Shown piece after piece: positions 21,252-37,427 of a DNA stretch of 48,478 nucleotides. This stretch comes from an uncultured Bacilli bacterium (lineage in GTDB: Bacteria > Bacillota_I > Bacilli_A > RF39 > UBA660). The notes below the pieces were generated by a model that worked only from the letters and a program-made list of their open reading frames with translations, was not told the origin of the DNA and made no database searches. Each line of letters starts with the position of its first letter. Within the stretch, counting starts at the first letter, position 1. Position numbers and translations under genes: made by a program. Location of the stretch: assembly GCA_947623935.1 (NCBI GenBank), contig CANQIE010000005.1:1-48478 (forward strand). The letters run 5' to 3'.

Positions 21252-23568
21252 AAGACCTGTTCGAGGAGAGAAAGCAAAAGACTTTAAAGGGGCTATTAAA
21301 AGACTCTTTAAGGAACTTGCTTCTTTCAAAGTATTATTGATTTTAGGATTGACGCTTGCTGCTTTTGGCTCTATTTTATCGATTACGGCTCCTAACCGTC
21401 TTTCTGATTTAATCGATAAAATATCCGAAGGATTAGTGGTAAACACCGAGAACTTAGAAAAATTAACAGCTCATGTGCAAGAAAGTCTTTCCGAAGAAAA
21501 ATTAAAAGAAGAACTTCCTCTTTTATTAAACTTAAATCTAAATCAAGAAACACTTCTTGAAATCAATACTTCGACTAGTATTACGAATGAAGAAAAACAA
21601 GTTTTCCAACAATTCTTAATGGGAATGGATCCAAATGCTCCAGAAGAACTTATGCAAAAAATAGGTTCTTTACCAGAAAGCGTTTTAAATCTTCTTTTAA
21701 AACCCTCTACTTATAAAGGGATAATGATTTCGACCGAAGATAAATTATTTCTTTTAAATACTATGAATATGGAAGATAAAGAAAATCTTTCTAATCTTGT
21801 TCTTCCAGAATCCCTTGTTCAAGTTCTCTTTAGTGATGTTACGATTGATGATGTAACCATAACAGCAAAGGAGCAAGGAGAATTCCTTCAAGTGATGAGT
21901 ACATTAGATCAAGATGCAGATGCTTCTCTTCTTTATCAAAAATTAGATACCATGCCTTCTTCCATTCAAACGATTGTAGAGCCTCAATTTGATATGGAAG
22001 GTATTAAAAATATCATTTTATTCTTAGTGGGACTTTATCTTTTATCGGCATTGTTTACTTTTATTGAATCCCTTTCTATGACGACCGTATCCAATCGTTT
22101 TGCTAAGAAATTAAGAAGTAGTATTTCGCAAAAAATCAATAAACTTCCGCTCAAATATTTTGATAAGAATCAAACGGGAGATGTATTGTCTCGGGTTACC
22201 AACGATGTGGATACGATTGCTCAAAGTATGAACCAATCCTTTGCTACTTTAGTAAGTGCTTCTACTTTGTTCGTGGGAACTGTTATCATGATGTTTATCA
22301 CCAACTGGGTGATGGCTTTTACAGCGATTGGTGCTAGTGTCATTGGTTTCTTCTTCATGTTTAAAGTGTTAGGTAAATCACAAAAATATTTTATTCAAAG
22401 ACAAAAGTATTTAGGCGATATCAACAGTCATATTGAAGAAGTTTATTCAGGACTTAATGTGGTCAAAGTATATAACGGAAATGAGATTGCCAATGAAAAG
22501 TTTGATGTTTTAAATGAAAAAGTGTATGAAGCCAATCGTAAGAGTCAATTCTTATCTGGACTCATGATGCCCATGATGAACTTTATTGGTAACTTTGGTT
22601 ATGTTGCCGTTTGTATTGTGGGAGCACTTCTTACCATGAATCATGTCATTACTTTTGGAGTAATTGTTGCCTTTATGACCTATGTTCGTTTATTTACTTC
22701 TCCTTTATCCCAAATAGGGCAAGCCATGACTTCGTTGCAGACGACGGCAGCAGCCAGTGAAAGAGTATTTGAATTTGTAGACGAAGAAGAAATGGCTAGT
22801 CAAGAACACATTACGAAAGTTCTAGATAAGAGTAAAGTAAAAGGAAATATCGAGTTTTCCAATGTTCAATTTACGTATGCAGGTAATAAGTATCCTACGA
22901 TTAAGAATTTTAGTGCTCATGCTAGTGCAGGAGAAAAGATTGCGATTGTTGGACCTACGGGTGCTGGAAAAACGACGATGGTCAACCTCTTAATGAAATT
23001 CTACGATATCGACAAAGGGGATATTAAAATCGATGGGGTGTCGACTAAAGAACTTTCAAGAGAAAACATACATGACCTCTTTACGATGGTATTACAAGAT
23101 ACCTGGTTATTTGAAGGAACGGTAAGAGAAAACATTACCTATAATCGACCTAATATTTCTCTAGAAAGAGTTAAAGAAGTATCCGAAATTGTAGGACTTG
23201 ATCACTTTATTAAGACCCTTCCTCATGGCTATGATTCAATGATTACCGAAAACGATAATGTTTCAGCAGGCCAACGGCAACTTTTGACCATTGCTCGAGG
23301 TATGATTGAAGATTCCCCATTCTTAATCTTAGATGAAGCCACTAGTAATGTTGATACTAGAACGGAAGAATTAGTCCAAAAAGCGATGGACAAATTAACG
23401 GAAGGAAGAACCTCTTTCATTATTGCACATCGTCTATCGACTATTAAAAATGCTGATTTGATTCTAGTGATGAAAGGCGGCAACATTGTAGAACAAGGAA
23501 CGCATGAAGAATTAATGCAAAAGAATGGTTTCTATGCCGACTTATACAATTCTCAATTTGAATTATAA
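21244..23568 (+). CDS. ABC exporter half with repeat-containing outer domain
   Basis: A 774-residue half-transporter, about 190 longer than usual. The extra part lies between membrane helices 1 and 2 (roughly residues 50-255) and should face outside. It holds three similar helical units (about 113-160, 162-205 and 206-248), each ending in a PxSxxxx-type segment. The ATPase part has Walker A VGPTGAGKT, an atypical signature VSAGQRQ and an intact Walker B with Glu (LILDEATSNVD). So this subunit provides the catalytic Glu and the partner provides the good signature, the typical asymmetric pair. BmrD of Bacillus also has an outer domain at this place. A terminator follows. Confidence 0.92.
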   Translation: MPRRPVRGEKAKDFKGAIKRLFKELASFKVLLILGLTLAAFGSILSITAPNRLSDLIDKISEGLVVNTENLEKLTAHVQESLSEEKLKEELPLLLNLNLNQETLLEINTSTSITNEEKQVFQQFLMGMDPNAPEELMQKIGSLPESVLNLLLKPSTYKGIMISTEDKLFLLNTMNMEDKENLSNLVLPESLVQVLFSDVTIDDVTITAKEQGEFLQVMSTLDQDADASLLYQKLDTMPSSIQTIVEPQFDMEGIKNIILFLVGLYLLSALFTFIESLSMTTVSNRFAKKLRSSISQKINKLPLKYFDKNQTGDVLSRVTNDVDTIAQSMNQSFATLVSASTLFVGTVIMMFITNWVMAFTAIGASVIGFFFMFKVLGKSQKYFIQRQKYLGDINSHIEEVYSGLNVVKVYNGNEIANEKFDVLNEKVYEANRKSQFLSGLMMPMMNFIGNFGYVAVCIVGALLTMNHVITFGVIVAFMTYVRLFTSPLSQIGQAMTSLQTTAAASERVFEFVDEEEMASQEHITKVLDKSKVKGNIEFSNVQFTYAGNKYPTIKNFSAHASAGEKIAIVGPTGAGKTTMVNLLMKFYDIDKGDIKIDGVSTKELSRENIHDLFTMVLQDTWLFEGTVRENITYNRPNISLERVKEVSEIVGLDHFIKTLPHGYDSMITENDNVSAGQRQLLTIARGMIEDSPFLILDEATSNVDTRTEELVQKAMDKLTEGRTSFIIAHRLSTIKNADLILVMKGGNIVEQGTHEELMQKNGFYADLYNSQFEL

Positions 23569-23574
23569 TTTTTT

Positions 23575-23606
23575 AAAAGGCGTCTTTTAGGATGCCTTTT
23601 TAGTTT
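23575..23606 (+). terminator. Terminator after the ABC exporter pair
   Basis: Stem AAAAGGCGTC/GATGCCTTTT (23575-23584 and 23591-23600), with one G-T pair, then T. Confidence 0.75.
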
Positions 23607-23680
23607 ATAAAGATTGATTTTAGAAGGTGTTTGTGGTAGGATAAAAAGCATTAAGAATTAGATTTAAGGAGTGAATAAAA

Positions 23681-24133
23681 ATGAATAGACAAGATGCTAC
23701 GAGTTTCGTTAAAACGATTTTAAAAAATGGAGTCGATCATAATTTAAAAGTAAATGTGGTTAAAAAATCCATTCTCGATTATGCCAAGTATTTAAATAAC
23801 AATGAGATGGCTAGTAGAGAAGATATTGAGTATATTATAGGCTTAAGTAATATTACTTCAAGATTGTTAAAATTATTTAAGACTTCTTCTGATTTTGATG
23901 CGGTTTTTGATACTTTGACTGAAGTTAAACCAAAGAAACGGACTGCTTCTAACAATAGACCTTCATCTGTTGTTAGTAGATTTTTAGAAGATTATGATTG
24001 TGGACCAAGTCGTTCGTCAAGTCATGATTCTTGTGGTACTTCCATTGTAGATCATCGTAGTAGTTCTAGTACGGCCTATACTTACACCTCATCTTCCTGT
24101 GATAGCCCTAGATCAGGTGGTAGAAATTGCTAA
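23681..24133 (+). CDS. Ser/Cys-rich small protein, candidate RiPP precursor
   Basis: A 150-residue protein that I do not recognise. Residues 1-80 are an ordinary charged helical domain. From about residue 88 to the end the sequence is low in hydrophobics, with 15 Ser in residues 101-150 and four Cys at 107, 118, 140 and 150. Two are in CG pairs, and the C-terminus is SGGRNC. The stop lies inside the start region of a radical SAM gene (7-base overlap), and a second radical SAM gene follows. A leader-like N-terminus and a Cys/Ser-rich tail next to such enzymes suggest a ribosomally made, modified peptide, but this is inferred. It could also be a coat-type structural protein. AAGGAG precedes the start. 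Confidence 0.6.
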   Translation: MNRQDATSFVKTILKNGVDHNLKVNVVKKSILDYAKYLNNNEMASREDIEYIIGLSNITSRLLKLFKTSSDFDAVFDTLTEVKPKKRTASNNRPSSVVSRFLEDYDCGPSRSSSHDSCGTSIVDHRSSSSTAYTYTSSSCDSPRSGGRNC

Positions 24134-25425
24134 TTAAAGAATACTTTAAAAATGCTCAAGCAAATGCCCTTTGTAATACTTCGTATCCTTTAAGTGTATC
24201 CAATTGGGAAGAATATAAGAATTCTTCTATCGACTTATTTCAAGATGAAAAAGATCTTTGTTTCTATATCCATGTTCCTTTCTGTAAGAGGCTTTGTGCT
24301 TTTTGTGAGTATGTCAAATATCGGATACGTGATATTGAAAGTCAAAAGGTGTATCTAGCCCATTTAGAAAATGAAGTGATGCACTTTTTAGATACGCATC
24401 CTAATATTATGTTATATGGGTTTGATATTGGAGGAGGAACTCCTACCTCATTAGATGACGAAGTTTTTCAAGCACTTTTAGAACTTTATCAAAAAATACT
24501 TACGAAGTGTAGCGTAGTAGAAGATTTTGAACCCAGTATAGAAACTACATTTGATACTTTAACTAAAAATAAAATAAAGATGATTAAATCTTCTGGAATT
24601 GATCGAATTTCTTTAGGTATACAAACAACCAATTCTAAGATTTTAAAAAAGAATAATCGTATCTATGCTTCTTTAACGAAAATGCAAGAAGTCCTTTCTT
24701 TAATTAAAGAAGAAGGAATTTCCAAGGTCAATTTAGATCTCATGTATGGACTTAAAGACCAAACGAAAAAAGACTTACAAGATACGTTAAAAACGATTGC
24801 TATATTAAATCCTGAACAGGTCACATTATATGAAATGCGTTACAATATGGTCTCTTCTAAAAGAAATATTGATAGGCGAAAGATGTATACCTTTTATAAA
24901 TACTTATATAAACAGTTAAGAAAAATGGGGTATTATGCAACTTTCTCTCAAAATACGTTTAGTAAAGATTCTGTGGATAAAGGATTGTCTTCTTATTTGC
25001 GGTATCGCATGATTGAAAATATTTCTTATAAAGGATTTGGGATTTCTGCTCAATCAAAGTCTAGGATAGGTATCAGTTACAATATTGGAAAAACTAGAAA
25101 AAGTTTTAATGATTGTGTGAAAGATCCTTCTTTTAAAGTAGAAGATAATTATGTTTTACCTAAAGAAGAATTGTTTAGTAAATATGTTTCTATTAGCCTT
25201 TACTATGGCAGAATGAAGAAAAAAGTTATAAAGGAAATACTAGGAACTGAAATGGAAAAAGCTTATAAGGAAGAAATGGAGTTTCTACATAAAAAGAAAC
25301 TAATCAGGGAGAATGATGAAGAAATCTATCTTACTCCAAAAGGTTTTTTCTATTATGGGGCGATTGCATCTCTCTTTTATGCTCCTAAAGTGAAAGCGTG
25401 GTTAATCGAAAATGGAAATAAGTAA
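24127..25425 (+). CDS. HemN/HemW-like radical SAM enzyme
   Basis: A 432-residue radical SAM protein. The cluster motif is Cys53-x3-Cys57-x2-Cys60 (HVPFCKRLCAFCEY), with the AdoMet-binding GGGTPTS at 102-108, as in coproporphyrinogen dehydrogenase/HemW-type proteins. The C-terminal part ends in a HemN-like winged helix (KKLIRENDEEIYLTPKG). No other haem synthesis genes are present, so haem-related work is doubtful. It starts with TTG inside the end of the Ser/Cys-rich gene (weak GGTGG upstream) and so depends on coupling. It overlaps the next radical SAM gene by 14 bases. HemN-like enzymes also act as methyl transferases on peptides. Confidence 0.85.
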   Translation: MLIKEYFKNAQANALCNTSYPLSVSNWEEYKNSSIDLFQDEKDLCFYIHVPFCKRLCAFCEYVKYRIRDIESQKVYLAHLENEVMHFLDTHPNIMLYGFDIGGGTPTSLDDEVFQALLELYQKILTKCSVVEDFEPSIETTFDTLTKNKIKMIKSSGIDRISLGIQTTNSKILKKNNRIYASLTKMQEVLSLIKEEGISKVNLDLMYGLKDQTKKDLQDTLKTIAILNPEQVTLYEMRYNMVSSKRNIDRRKMYTFYKYLYKQLRKMGYYATFSQNTFSKDSVDKGLSSYLRYRMIENISYKGFGISAQSKSRIGISYNIGKTRKSFNDCVKDPSFKVEDNYVLPKEELFSKYVSISLYYGRMKKKVIKEILGTEMEKAYKEEMEFLHKKKLIRENDEEIYLTPKGFFYYGAIASLFYAPKVKAWLIENGNK

Positions 25426-26335
25426 CATGAAATTGTATGAAGAGTTAACTTTATTTGGGAAAAAGGTGCCAGTTAAACATTATCTTTGTACTGATGACCC
25501 CAATCGTGTTCTTCCCAAGTCTTTAAAACTTAATCTTTATATTAAAATCAATGATGCCTGTAATGGACTTTGTGCCTTTTGTAGTAACAGAGGACATGAG
25601 GACGGTGGCAAACTCGATTTAGCAAAATTAAAAGAAGTGCTTCTTTATTTAAAAGAGCGTAATCTTTTGAATCGTGTTTCCGTGACGGGTGGAGAACCTT
25701 TATTAAATATGGAGTTATTAAATGACGTACTTAATTTAATCTTTGAAGTGGGTAAAGATTTGAAAGTTACTTTTAATACCAATGGTTTTCGTATAAAAGA
25801 GATAATAGGTCTTGACTCTATTCATCAAATAGAAGGCATCCATATTAGTAGACATCATTATTTAGATGACGTGAACAACTGTATTTTTGGAACCGAAGCC
25901 GCCTCTTCCTCTGACATACTGGATACGATGAATAGTTTGGATAATAAGCATTTACTTCGTCTTAACTGTCTCTTGATGAAAGACTATATCGATTCACCTC
26001 TTGAAGTTCAAAAATATTTAGAAAGTGCTGCTAGGTTAAATATCTTTAGAGTAGGGTTTGTCTCACTTATGAAAGTAAATCCTTATTGTGAGGCTCATTT
26101 TGTAGACTTTAATACCATATTTGAAAAGATGCATTTGAATAATCTAAATACAGCACATGCTTATGACCAACATCTTTGTGAATGTTTAAATGGAGTCTAT
26201 GTATCGGAACAGGGAAAGTTTATCGAATACTATGCACGAATGACTAAGAATGCTCCTTGTAATTATGCAAGACAATTTGTTTATACTTCGGATAATAAGC
26301 TCTTGGCAGGCTTTGGGCAGGAAAGTATTATTTAA
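25412..26335 (+). CDS. Second radical SAM enzyme, compact
   Basis: A 307-residue radical SAM protein. Cluster motif Cys50-x3-Cys54-x2-Cys57 (DACNGLCAFCSN), followed by SVTGGEPLLN near residue 90-99. Near the C-terminus a CEC pair (in HLCECLNG) and a later Cys (APCNYARQ) could bind an extra cluster, as in peptide-modifying enzymes. It overlaps the preceding HemN-like gene by 14 bases, or follows by one base if ATG 25427 is used; neither has a strong ribosome site. The three genes 23681-26335 therefore act as one unit. The substrate is not known. Confidence 0.82.
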   Translation: MEISNMKLYEELTLFGKKVPVKHYLCTDDPNRVLPKSLKLNLYIKINDACNGLCAFCSNRGHEDGGKLDLAKLKEVLLYLKERNLLNRVSVTGGEPLLNMELLNDVLNLIFEVGKDLKVTFNTNGFRIKEIIGLDSIHQIEGIHISRHHYLDDVNNCIFGTEAASSSDILDTMNSLDNKHLLRLNCLLMKDYIDSPLEVQKYLESAARLNIFRVGFVSLMKVNPYCEAHFVDFNTIFEKMHLNNLNTAHAYDQHLCECLNGVYVSEQGKFIEYYARMTKNAPCNYARQFVYTSDNKLLAGFGQESII

Positions 26336-26348
26336 CTTTCTTTTTTTG

Positions 26349-26377
26349 TTGAAAAATATCGAAAAATGTGTTATATT
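26349..26377 (+). promoter_or_regulatory. Promoter of the CmpB-like gene
   Basis: TTGAAA, 17 bases, TATATT: a good vegetative promoter. It rules out the upstream ATG at 26366, which lies inside the spacer. Confidence 0.7.
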
Positions 26378-26407
26378 ATGCAACAAGAAAGAGAAGTAGT
26401 GGGGTAT

Positions 26408-27070
26408 ATGGAAAAAGAAGAAAGAAAGGTACTATTTCAAAAGGTCGTATTTATCTTTGTTGTTGGATGTGTGCTTGGAACTTACTATGAAGAAATTTTG
26501 CATGTCGTTAAAAACTTATTAGCACATGGAACTTTTTCTTGGGTTTCAAGAAGAGGACTTCTTTATGGACCTTTTAGTCCTATTTATGGTATTGCTTTTG
26601 TTTTAGTTTATTTGCTCTTTTGTCTTAAAAAGAGAAAGTGGTATGTCAATTTTATTTATGGATCGCTTCTTGGTGGATTCTATGAATATAGTATGAGTTA
26701 TCTACAGGAAAAACTTTGGGGAACCATTTCCTGGGATTACTCCCATCACTTTTTAAATATTGGTGGAAGAACGACGATTCCTTTTATGTTCTTTTGGGGA
26801 GTGGTAGTTTTACTTTTCATCTATGTACTTTATCCCATTATTAATCATATTTATGAAAAAATACCTGCGCATTTTGCACAAAAACTGGCGACGTTCTTAT
26901 TTGTCTTCTTAATGTTTGATGCCTCGATTTCGCTCGTTGCTGTCAGTCGTCAAACGATGCGTCATAAAGGAATTGAACCCAAGACGGCCTTGGGAGAGTT
27001 CTGCGATGAACATTATACCGATGATTATTTAAGAAAGATTTACGATAATTCAATCGATGTGAATCCTTAA
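26408..27070 (+). CDS. CmpB-like membrane protein (PF06541)
   Basis: A 220-residue protein with about five membrane segments. It matches the family called putative ABC transporter permease (ABC_trans_CmpB) by SRRGLLYGPFSPIYGIAF (about 46-63), FYEYSMSYLQEKLWG and FLNIGGRTTIPF. The family name is misleading: no ATPase partner lies here and transport has not been shown in general. ATG 26408 follows GTAGTGGGG and lies 24 bases after the likely transcription start. A terminator follows. Confidence 0.8.
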   Translation: MEKEERKVLFQKVVFIFVVGCVLGTYYEEILHVVKNLLAHGTFSWVSRRGLLYGPFSPIYGIAFVLVYLLFCLKKRKWYVNFIYGSLLGGFYEYSMSYLQEKLWGTISWDYSHHFLNIGGRTTIPFMFFWGVVVLLFIYVLYPIINHIYEKIPAHFAQKLATFLFVFLMFDASISLVAVSRQTMRHKGIEPKTALGEFCDEHYTDDYLRKIYDNSIDVNP

Positions 27071-27098
27071 GCAAATCCTTTGCGATTTGCTTTTTTTA
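27069..27098 (+). terminator. Terminator
   Basis: Stem AAGCAAATC/GATTTGCTT (27069-27077 and 27084-27092), then T's. Confidence 0.82.
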
Positions 27099-27128
27099 TG
27101 CTATAATAAAAAATAGAGGGTGAAGCCG

Positions 27129-28133
27129 ATGAACGATGATGAAATTTTAGATCTAGAAGAAAATGATGCTAAGACAGAAGAAGTATTGGATACCAGTGAA
27201 GTCCCATCGTATGTTAGAAAAGATGCGTTTGGAAACAATACTTTTAGTATGGTTGAACGATATGGCGAAAACTACTGTAAAAAAGAATATATTACGAATC
27301 CGGCCATAGGACGTGATCGAGAAATTAAAGAGTTAATTTTGATTTTATTGACACCTGAGAAGAGTGCTATTTTAACCGGTAAACCCGGTATAGGTAAAAC
27401 CAGTATAGTAGAAGGCCTTGCTTATCGAATTCAGAAAAACGAAGTACCAGAAGCTTTACAAGGATATGACATTATCAATATTAAAACACCTTCTTTACTA
27501 GGAACGATGCCTAATGGAGAATCTCGAATTCAGACTTTAATCGATGAACTTAAACAAATGGAAAAAGTGATCCTTTTTATCGATGAAATTCACATGTTAA
27601 TTGGTGCTACTGATCAATCGTCTTTGGATTTTGCGAACATCTTCAAGGAAGGTTTAGGAAGAGGTAGTATCAAAGTGGTGGGTGCTACTACGACCGAAGA
27701 GTACGAACGTTATATTTTACGTGATAAAGCTTTCACCAGACGTTTTCAAAAAATAGAAGTGTTGGAACCTACTCGTGAAGAGACCATCGATATCATGATG
27801 GGAACTCTTCCTAAGATTGAACACCAAACGGGCTGCAAACTTAAATATTCATCTTTCAAACAATCACAAATCATGGGCTTTATTGTCGATTTAACTTCCG
27901 AGTATAAAAGAGTCTATGAGATTGGATCCCGTTACCCGGATATTGCGCTTACTTTATTGAAACAGGCTTTCTCGTATGCTGTTTTCGATAACCGAAACCA
28001 AGTAAATATCTTTGATATTAGGTCTGCTGTACAAGATAGTAAAAATGTCTATCCCGATGTCATCGAAAAAGAATTAGTGCATTTTGATGAGATGTTTAAA
28101 GATTTAATGCAAGAAGAAAAAGAAGCTCAATAA
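27129..28133 (+). CDS. Single-module Clp/Hsp100-like AAA+ ATPase
   Basis: A 334-residue protein made of one AAA+ module resembling the first ATPase domain of ClpA/B/C. It has NPAIGRDREIKELILIL (about 57-73), Walker A LTGKPGIGKTS (about 81-91), Walker B ILFIDEIHMLIGA (about 145-157), sensor VVGATTTEEY and the arginine finger region AFTRRFQ. The Clp N-domain, middle coil and second ATPase domain are absent, replaced by a short acidic N-terminus. Such stand-alone modules may move proteins or act as adaptors; the role is unknown. ATG 27129 is chosen over GTG 27120 because AGAGGG is then at correct spacing. Confidence 0.82.
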   Translation: MNDDEILDLEENDAKTEEVLDTSEVPSYVRKDAFGNNTFSMVERYGENYCKKEYITNPAIGRDREIKELILILLTPEKSAILTGKPGIGKTSIVEGLAYRIQKNEVPEALQGYDIINIKTPSLLGTMPNGESRIQTLIDELKQMEKVILFIDEIHMLIGATDQSSLDFANIFKEGLGRGSIKVVGATTTEEYERYILRDKAFTRRFQKIEVLEPTREETIDIMMGTLPKIEHQTGCKLKYSSFKQSQIMGFIVDLTSEYKRVYEIGSRYPDIALTLLKQAFSYAVFDNRNQVNIFDIRSAVQDSKNVYPDVIEKELVHFDEMFKDLMQEEKEAQ

Positions 28134-32034: not shown

Positions 32035-32086
32035 CTTTACTGTAAAGTTAACAAAATATTGACCTGGGGGGGGGTAGTTTTATAAT
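32035..32086 (+). promoter_or_regulatory. Promoter with poly-G tract, predicted phase-variable
   Basis: TTGACC (32059-32064) and TATAAT (32081-32086) are separated by 16 bases that include nine consecutive G (32066-32074). Adding one G gives the optimal spacing of 17. A palindrome CTTTACTGTAAAG (32035-32047) lies just upstream as a possible operator. In DNA this AT-rich, such a G run in a promoter spacer is hardly accidental. The start codon is about 110 bases downstream. Confidence 0.7.
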
Positions 32087-32196
32087 GAAATTGTAAATAT
32101 AGAATAAAAATAGTTTCTTTTTAGTTAATTTTAAAGTTTTAATAATAAAAACAAACTATAATGGAAACTATAAATAATAAAAGGAGAAGTGAAGTT

Positions 32197-34215
32197 ATGG
32201 AAGAGAAAAGAAATATGAAAGGTTTAGCTGCTGTATGCCTATTGGTATTAGCTTTAGTCCTCATTACCGTAGGAACCACTTTTGCTTTCTTTCAATATTC
32301 AAGACAAGGAGATACAGAAAATAAGATTGAAACAGGAACTTTAACTTTTCTTTATGATGAAAGTAAAAGTAAAGATGGAGGAGTATCTATAGAGAATGCT
32401 TTTCCAATGAGTGATGAAGATGGAGAAGTCTTAGATCAAGCGAATAAAGATGTCTTTGACTTTGATGTAAGGGCAACAACCAAAGGAGCAGCTATTAATT
32501 ATGAAATATATGTAACTAAAGAAAATATTTCTACTTTACCAGAACAAGTAGTAAAAACTTATTTAAGAGTTGTAAAGGATGGAGCAGAAAGTGACCCCGA
32601 AACAAAGGGATTACCAACAGGAAATAATTTAAATTTATATAGTGAATTATATGATAGTAAAGTACCAAGTCTATTAAAAGATACAAGTATATCAAAAGCA
32701 AAGACATTATATAGAGAAGAAATTCCGGATGGTCAAAGCAATTATGAAAAAACATTCCGGTATAGAATGTGGATCGATGAAAAAGCGAATCAAGTAGTAA
32801 ATGGAAGTTGGATATATAATAATATGACTTTCTCTGTAAAAGTAAATGTATATGCACAGAATGGAGCAATAGATGATCCAACAGCACCTTCAACAAATCC
32901 ATATCAAGAGTCACAAGATAAAAGTGGAGCCAATGTACCTGCTTTAGTAGAAGGGTTAATACCAGTGGTTTATGATGGAGCACAACAAAAGTGGGTAAAG
33001 GCAGGATATGCTGGATGGTATAATTATGACAAACAGGAATGGGCGAATGCAGTAACGGTTACTGCAACACATAGAAATGCATATCAAGAAGCAGAACCAG
33101 GAATAGAAATACCCATGGAAGATATCAATACAATGTGGGTCTGGATACCAAGATATGAATATAATTATGTAACAATTGCAGATTATGCAGGAGGGGAAGA
33201 TGCCAATCATCCTGGAGCAATAGATATTAACTTTATCAATGGAGTTAATGATACACCAAGTGATTCAGTAAATTATAAAGTACATCCAGCCTTTAACTTT
33301 GGAGATGACAAATTAACAGGATTCTGGTATGGAAAGTTTGAAACAAGTAGTAAAGAAACCTGTACTGCAGCAAGTGATTCAGTAAATACTGGTTGTGATA
33401 AAGACACTTTTACTCCACAAATAAAACCAGGAGTAACTTCATGGGGAGGAATAAGATTATCTACCATGTTTACAGTATCCCGCAAGATGGAAGTGAATAC
33501 AAATGAATATGGATTTACTGGTGGAAATATAGATACCCATATGAGTAAGAATAGTGAATGGGGTTCAGTTGCCTACTTATCCCAAAGTAAGTATGGAAAA
33601 TATGGAAATATTTTATATACCGATATTTATAAAGAAATATATCAAAATAAGTCTGACAAGTTTATTACCGGAAGTAGTAATGGAACACCCCCTCAGTCAA
33701 ATGCTCGAGAAGAGCAGTATGCATACAATGATATGATCAATTTAGGGGAAGGTCACGGGATAGGTGGACCAGGTGCATCTACTACTGGAAACATCACAGG
33801 AGTCTATGATATGAATGGAGGAAGGCCGGAATATGTAATGGGTGCACTAAAAGATGATAATACAGATAAACCAGCAATCAACAATTCTGGATTTACTGAT
33901 GATAGTATTGAACATACAAAAATACCAGATGCCAAGTATTATGACTTATATACAAGCACTAATCATAGTTCCAATGATGGAAGATTATCTGCGACTGCAT
34001 GTAATGGAGGAGTATGTTATGGACATGCATTATCAGAAACAATAGGATGGTATAGTGATAGATGGCTTTTTCCAATGCCTTCGTCTTCATGGATCGTCCG
34101 TGGCGGCCACTACTCCTATGGTGTAGATTCCGGAGTGTTCCGTTTCGGCAGTTATGATGGGAATAGTGTTTTCCAATACTCGTTCCGCTTAGCGCTTGCC
34201 CCTACTGGAGTGTAA
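32197..34215 (+). CDS. SipW-type secreted protein with DGR-like variable C-terminus
   Basis: A 672-residue secreted or pilin-like protein. Residues 1-33 form a signal/membrane segment of the SipW/TasA (camelysin) type, ending TVGTTFAFFQYSRQGDT, followed by a beta-rich domain to about 230. From about 245 to the end lies a C-type-lectin/formylglycine-enzyme-like domain (MWVWIPRYEYNYV, WYGKFETSS, SEWGSVAYLSQSKYG). The last part (WIVRGGHYSYGVDSGVFRF and onward, residues 632-665) matches the variable-region pattern of DGR targets. ATG 32197 follows AAAGGAG; an in-frame ATG at 32161 lacks one. No reverse transcriptase lies in the window. Expected role: a surface binding protein with changeable specificity. 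Confidence 0.82.
   Translation: MEEKRNMKGLAAVCLLVLALVLITVGTTFAFFQYSRQGDTENKIETGTLTFLYDESKSKDGGVSIENAFPMSDEDGEVLDQANKDVFDFDVRATTKGAAINYEIYVTKENISTLPEQVVKTYLRVVKDGAESDPETKGLPTGNNLNLYSELYDSKVPSLLKDTSISKAKTLYREEIPDGQSNYEKTFRYRMWIDEKANQVVNGSWIYNNMTFSVKVNVYAQNGAIDDPTAPSTNPYQESQDKSGANVPALVEGLIPVVYDGAQQKWVKAGYAGWYNYDKQEWANAVTVTATHRNAYQEAEPGIEIPMEDINTMWVWIPRYEYNYVTIADYAGGEDANHPGAIDINFINGVNDTPSDSVNYKVHPAFNFGDDKLTGFWYGKFETSSKETCTAASDSVNTGCDKDTFTPQIKPGVTSWGGIRLSTMFTVSRKMEVNTNEYGFTGGNIDTHMSKNSEWGSVAYLSQSKYGKYGNILYTDIYKEIYQNKSDKFITGSSNGTPPQSNAREEQYAYNDMINLGEGHGIGGPGASTTGNITGVYDMNGGRPEYVMGALKDDNTDKPAINNSGFTDDSIEHTKIPDAKYYDLYTSTNHSSNDGRLSATACNGGVCYGHALSETIGWYSDRWLFPMPSSSWIVRGGHYSYGVDSGVFRFGSYDGNSVFQYSFRLALAPTGV
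34078..34200 (+). other. Putative DGR variable region (VR)
   Basis: About 50% GC, against roughly 35% in the rest of the gene. Of 17 codons at the positions that vary in known DGR targets, 16 end in C or T (for example CAC, TCC, GAT, CGT, AGT, TTC), as expected when AAC/AAT codons of a template are rewritten at their A residues. The rest of the gene prefers A-ending codons. The region ends just before the stop. Confidence 0.72.
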
Positions 34216-36890: not shown

Positions 36891-37427
36891 ATGAAGACAA
36901 AAAAAGAAAGAGAACGAATCGAAAAAAAAGACCGTTTTATACGTTACTTAGAATTAGTACTTATTTTTGCTTTAACCATTGTATTCATGTTAGGACTTAG
37001 AATCTTTTATTTAAACGATCAAAACTATCAAAAGACGATTCCTATTATGCGTGATGTTTTATTTGAAATTAGAGCTAGTGAAGTTGAAAACTTTGTCAAT
37101 GAAAAACAAGATGCCATTCTCTATGTTGGAACTTCAGCCAATGATGCGTCTCGTACTTTTGAAAAAGATTTTAAACCGTATGTTGAAGAAAATCATTTGG
37201 AAGATGTGATTACGTATTTAAATTTGAGTGATGCTAATGTAGACGATTTTTATACTACTTTTAATAATCAATATAACTATAGTACGTCTTGGTCTTATCC
37301 TGCTTTTATTGTTTTTGAAGATGGAAAAGTAAAAAATATTTTAGCTTCTACTAAGAGTAAAACTTTTGATATTAATGAAGTGGATTGGTTCTTAAGAGAT
37401 AATGGTTTGGGAGTGTATTTAAAATGA
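36891..37427 (+). CDS. Membrane-anchored thioredoxin-fold-like protein
   Basis: A 178-residue protein with a basic N-terminus, one membrane segment (about 20-42) and an outer domain that looks like a thioredoxin fold. It has AILYVGTSANDASRTFEKDF where a CxxC would normally follow the first strand, and YPAFIVFEDGKV with the cis-Pro position. No Cys is present, so redox work is excluded. The stop overlaps the start of the trmL gene by 4 bases. TAGGAGGCGC precedes the start. Confidence 0.65.
   Translation: MKTKKERERIEKKDRFIRYLELVLIFALTIVFMLGLRIFYLNDQNYQKTIPIMRDVLFEIRASEVENFVNEKQDAILYVGTSANDASRTFEKDFKPYVEENHLEDVITYLNLSDANVDDFYTTFNNQYNYSTSWSYPAFIVFEDGKVKNILASTKSKTFDINEVDWFLRDNGLGVYLK

Follow-up and report, generated by a model that had tools for sequence, protein, structure and literature searches.

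The stretch of DNA analyzed here (the window) is a whole contig of 48,478 nt, C5 of an uncultured Bacilli MAG designated G000 (50 contigs, 1.15 Mb, 93% complete). By protein search, the nearest named relatives are MAGs recorded as “uncultured Bacilli bacterium” with the label Lapin, names that make rabbit gut their probable origin. The locus considered is a gene for a putative DGR target protein, with the following features:

32059–32064, + strand: -35 box, TTGACC, read directly from the sequence; TTGAC[ACG] is common to 35 class-1 promoters of the genome
32066–32074, + strand: tract of nine G (G9) in the promoter spacer, a putative slippage switch, read directly from the sequence
32081–32086, + strand: -10 box, TATAAT, following a 16-bp spacer, read directly from the sequence
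32157–32162, + strand: second TATAAT-like box in a long leader, a possible alternative promoter; kept in long-leader paralogs, missing from the short-leader majority
32182–32186, + strand: ribosome-binding site, AGGAG, read directly from the sequence
32197–34215, + strand: coding sequence of the DGR target protein, 672 aa, supported by 25 aligned paralogs
32323–32862, + strand: N-terminal beta domain, TasA-fibre-like, from an AlphaFold model with best PDB match 8aur_A (TasA fibre, E 3.6e-4)
32944–34212, + strand: C-terminal domain with the DGR variable-protein fold, from a model with pTM 0.83 and best PDB match 5vf4 (TaqVP)
34087–34203, + strand: variable region (VR) with an IMH-like stretch at its 3' end, recognized by a gap-free match to a template repeat and adenine-biased mismatches

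The spacer between the boxes consists of a T (32065), the G9 tract, and TAGTTT (32075–32080), exactly 16 bp, so the coordinates bear out a preliminary description of TTGACC and TATAAT boxes separated by 16 bases that include nine G. The window as a whole is 31% GC and has no G or C runs of 6–8 nt; the only run of 9 is the promoter tract. The ATG at 32197 has a good ribosome site, whose position makes it the preferred start over 32161, where an alternative longer ORF begins.

The second TATAAT-like box, of which the preliminary description had warned, is present. The window (32087–32180) shares with the other long-leader paralogs an extra element of ~50 bp with inverted ends (ATAGTTT...AAACTAT) and this second TATAAT; the element resembles an insertion in which the -10 region was partly duplicated. 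Predicted folding of the leader RNA is no more stable than that of shuffled sequences (z -0.48). Since the second TATAAT is common to the long-leader paralogs, it is less certain that the window gene depends on the tract than that the short-leader majority does. Transcription of the window gene mainly from 32157–32162, with the tract mattering only for short-leader paralogs, would fit the conservation of the box among long-leader paralogs, but there is no good -35 box at the right distance, the box itself may be just the partial -10 copy of an insertion, and most paralogs do without it; this start is considered quite unlikely.

Searches of Pfam, PHROGs, and NCBIfam with the whole protein gave no usable match, TasA models included. 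Neither the protein nor the full alignment had a match in a PDB sequence search, and the C-terminal profile had only TaqVP, at E 0.93. AlphaFold models were built from paralog alignments. The C-terminal one (m307bc4c6c196) matches 5vf4 TaqVP with E 1.1e-5 and probability 1.00, and thus has a C-type-lectin-type fold. The N-terminal model (m25991ea0a52b) has a whole-model mean pLDDT of 52, higher in the beta domain. The resemblance to the TasA/SipW system consists of the match of this low-confidence model to 8aur_A and of a SipW-like peptidase gene elsewhere in the genome, with no HMM match for the protein. That gene is found on C1 (positions 22000–28000, locus L079) in a run with three TasA-like genes that have no DGR tip, among them genes with poly-G promoters of a second class; the peptidase scores above the cut-off for TIGR02228 and below that for the Bacillus SipW model. 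Compared with TasA, the window protein lacks any Pfam or NCBIfam TasA match and adds a DGR tip and a poly-G promoter. An N-terminal hydrophobic helix and the nature of its relatives suggest that the target proteins are located at the cell surface.

The 117-nt VR of the window gene aligns without gaps to an AAY-rich template repeat (TR) of the same length, within positions 58863–58994 of contig C2. Mismatches fall at 20 of the 31 adenines in the TR, as compared with 28 of its 86 remaining positions (Fisher p = 0.002); when the count is limited to codon positions 1 and 2, the figures are 19 of 30 and 10 of 48 (p = 0.0002). Family-wide, among equal-length VRs from 30 loci, mismatch to the TR is 65% at adenine cells versus 38, 28, and 23% at C, G, and T, and the adenine bias is also present at codon positions 1 and 2 and between pairs of paralogs. 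VRs and TR are 52% GC, their flanks 36%. The window gene therefore has what marks a DGR target, a 3' VR related to an AAY-rich TR with mismatches at template adenines, and together with the TaqVP fold this confirms the variable region first suggested from the sequence. Selection on exposed residues could account for part of the adenine contrast, which is why the DGR cassette of a sister genome matters. With only codon positions 1 and 2 counted, the VRs of G000 also depart from the TR at 3–9 of the 22 non-adenine sites in the VR core, so that homing from the C2 TR was not recent. The TR of the sister genome, tried as a second template for these non-adenine changes, fits no better.

That sister, G002, has an intact cassette (locus L245) in the order TR, MutS_I-like ORF (msl), Avd, RT, on a contig of 3.1 kb. 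Its Avd matches PF22296 at 3.6e-20 and is above the cut-off for NF033474; the PDB entry nearest its RT is 8ub7 (2.1e-47), the BPP-1 DGR RT. In G000, 93% complete, an RVT_1 search gave no RT match, and a search with the sister msl, Avd, and RT proteins found neither RT nor Avd, only a decayed msl start that follows a target gene on C18. The C2 TR is intact but stands without the cassette. The RT may be absent from the bin or lost from G000; because the MAG is incomplete, the species may still have both RT and Avd.

One reading of these results is that the DGR of this species is dead: the targets would be leftovers in which duplication, drift, and recombination are now the only sources of change, with phase variation still going on. 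The missing RT and Avd, the TR without its cassette, the decayed msl start, and the non-adenine drift in the VRs would all follow, and there is a precedent in Treponema denticola, some isolates of which still carry targets although RT and TR are gone (PMC4891356). Set against this are the state of the MAG, at 93% completeness in 50 contigs and broken at these very repeats, the short contig bearing the sister cassette, of a size easily lost in binning, and the intactness of the remaining TR. A dead DGR is a serious if somewhat doubtful possibility; on the reading preferred here, homing would be continuing in G000.

The window protein has 61 matches within its own genome, among them 42 copies of the C-terminal domain, 10 of which begin beyond a contig end and 32 on a contig. 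A tract of at least six G lies just upstream of 28 of these 32 VR genes; another two are the 3' parts of genes that are split, with the tract in front of the 5' parts (the pairing of parts was read from within-genome protein matches). The exceptions without a tract are C35:2390 and C4:20651. The latter has the promoter TTGACG-17 bp-TATACT and a VR nearest of all to the template; as one case, it agrees with the idea that a spacing of 17 bp works well. The preliminary description placed both mechanisms in one surface protein. Both features are there, but the protein is one of ~42 copies rather than a single one. A phage origin of the targets was considered and dropped, as there is no PHROG match and they are spread over the chromosome. 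The C-terminal domain also has distant relatives, their variable ends of the RGG type, in a Patescibacteria MAG, Candidatus Nomurabacteria (L221, L222, and L225).

G-runs of at least 8 nt number about 40 distinct examples in G000, where an order-2 composition model predicts 0.37 per genome; in DNA of 31% GC, the tract is therefore not due to chance. All but one of them (39 of about 40) sit inside TTGAC-Gn-TATAAT promoters, and the genes downstream are nearly all paralogs of the window gene. The same G9 promoter also precedes a gene for an SPFH/Band 7 protein of 426 aa that has a SHOCT tail and lies outside the DGR target family (L009 on C4, promoter at 37173–37200).

Tract lengths were compared between paralogs and genomes as consensus sequence. 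The 35 class-1 promoters of G000 comprise 29 with G9, four with G10, and two with G8, and their spacers are 16 bp in 31 cases, 17 in two, 15 in one, and 10 in one. Near-identical promoters of paralogs differ by one G, giving spacers of 15, 16, and 17 bp; two G10 tracts, on the other hand, arose by a T-to-G change that leaves the spacer at 16 bp. Spacers are 17–19 bp in the second promoter class, which is found before short TasA-like genes. In the sister genome, 17 promoters have 16 bp, five 15, one 17, and one 14. As in porA-type promoters, then, there is a homopolymer between -35 and -10 beyond chance expectation, with single-unit length differences between paralogs (8, 9, and 10 G), while lengths cluster tightly at 9 G, more so than might be expected of a tract under fast neutral slippage. 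Housekeeping -35/-10 spacing was sought from consensus matches in the genome; these showed no enrichment over control and so are silent on whether 16 or 17 bp is the optimum.

Poly-G tracts recur in different promoter sequences in G001, G013, G014, G016, and CANQIL, and those of G016 span 9 to 14 G. In other relatives they lie at coding starts, where length sets the reading frame. Three G10 paralogs in CANQOV stop after 12 residues and one G9 paralog is open; in CANQWY a G9 tract is open for 635 aa; and in G018 G8 is open and G9 closed. As read from consensus sequences, which do not record switching events, this is a contingency-gene arrangement. Windows of nine G were also counted in relatives with few or no members of the target family, which shows that the tract occurs outside this family as well. 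Two further sets of genes may be mentioned here. The G016 promoters L265–L270 (TTGACA-AATAT[AG]C-Gn-TAT[CT]CT, n = 9 to 14) precede another surface-type family, ending in VRPVVYLKS-like motifs, and in G005 a G10 run lies upstream of two prepilin-type proteins (L273, which has an N_methyl motif, and L276), possibly phase-variable pilins.

These comparisons bear on two other explanations of the tract. It could be a fixed, selected promoter element, either a site for a regulator or a spacer tuned to 16 bp, which was duplicated with the family and does not switch. A spacer of exactly 16 bp in 31 of 35 class-1 promoters, preserved even in the two G10 tracts with a T-to-G change, is what such an element would look like; it is at odds with the one-G differences between paralogs and with the 9–14 G range in G016, and leaves unexplained the length-dependent reading frame of the coding-start tracts. 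On balance, a fixed element appears unlikely. The tracts, or their uniform length, might also be an assembly artefact of repeated promoters, given that many contigs end within ~200 bp of such promoters and that only consensus sequence is at hand, but recurrence in separate assemblies, different species, and different sequence contexts makes this very improbable.

The interpretation retained is that the window gene is probably one of ~42 dispersed DGR targets, each switched by slippage and each with a tip diversified by the DGR. Evidence from sequence, from comparison, and from folds supports both halves of it, the poly-G spacer promoter and the DGR variable region. Each target would comprise a secreted stalk, which in the largest subgroup resembles the TasA fibre, and a C-type-lectin-like tip expected to bind a ligand; the last ~117 bp of the tip would descend from the AAY-rich TR via adenine-directed mutagenic homing. 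Slipped-strand changes of one G in living cells would set the spacer at 15, 16, or 17 bp and so each gene independently low or high, with the ON state presumably at about 10 G (17 bp). Cells would then hold a repertoire of silent and expressed lectins with tips that could also be rewritten.

Parts of this scheme have counterparts elsewhere. The Neisseria porA, opc, and fetA promoters have a homopolymer between -35 and -10 (PMC2791445) and, like those here, place a G or C run in the sigma-70-type promoter spacer of a surface protein gene. The preliminary description drew this comparison, which fits as to mechanism but missed the scale of a whole gene family: the Neisseria examples are single genes in pathogens, whereas here there is a ~40-copy family of DGR targets, putatively switched, in an uncultured commensal. 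In T. denticola one TR serves several remote surface-protein targets with C-terminal VRs, at most 7 (PMC4891356). The dispersed targets on one TR are similar, but G000 has 42 VR domains, and no poly-G switch is described in that paper. Thiohalocapsa PB-PSB1 also has many targets, 15 from nine DGR loci with some diversified in trans (PMC10907252), but these are conflict-system proteins rather than surface fibres. In family scale the system is like vlhA of Mycoplasma gallisepticum, whose small genome holds surface protein genes by the dozen, every one of them under a promoter controlled by a repeat of its own (PMC6258824), although there the repeats are GAA and upstream of the promoter, not G runs inside the spacer, and no DGR is involved.

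In the literature covered (few subscription journals, no bioRxiv preprints), no paper was found that joins DGRs with slipped-strand mispairing or pairs a DGR with RF39, and DGR, homopolymer, and phase variation together gave only a general phage-defence review. The earlier suggestion that the coupling is a new arrangement stands provisionally on this basis; taken overall, the preliminary interpretation from sequence is partly supported.

Descriptions of phase variation and of DGR mutagenesis are normally separate; here the two are apparently stacked on one gene family, with a number of targets (42 VR domains) above the 7 of T. denticola and the 15 from nine DGRs of Thiohalocapsa. Within this clade of uncultured gut Bacilli, putative poly-G switches arise repeatedly. 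A broader picture, offered tentatively as possible rather than probable, is of a two-tier repertoire: ~42 lectin-tipped fibre genes, most of them self-switched, with one retroelement rewriting their tips in trans. Silent members would perhaps be diversified while hidden and then exposed by a single-base slip, and related lineages would have arrived at this coupling too, their switches lying in other promoters or at the coding start. Homing in silent targets becomes directly testable in this family. Stacking the two mechanisms would separate which gene is displayed from what its tip recognizes, akin to immune repertoires.
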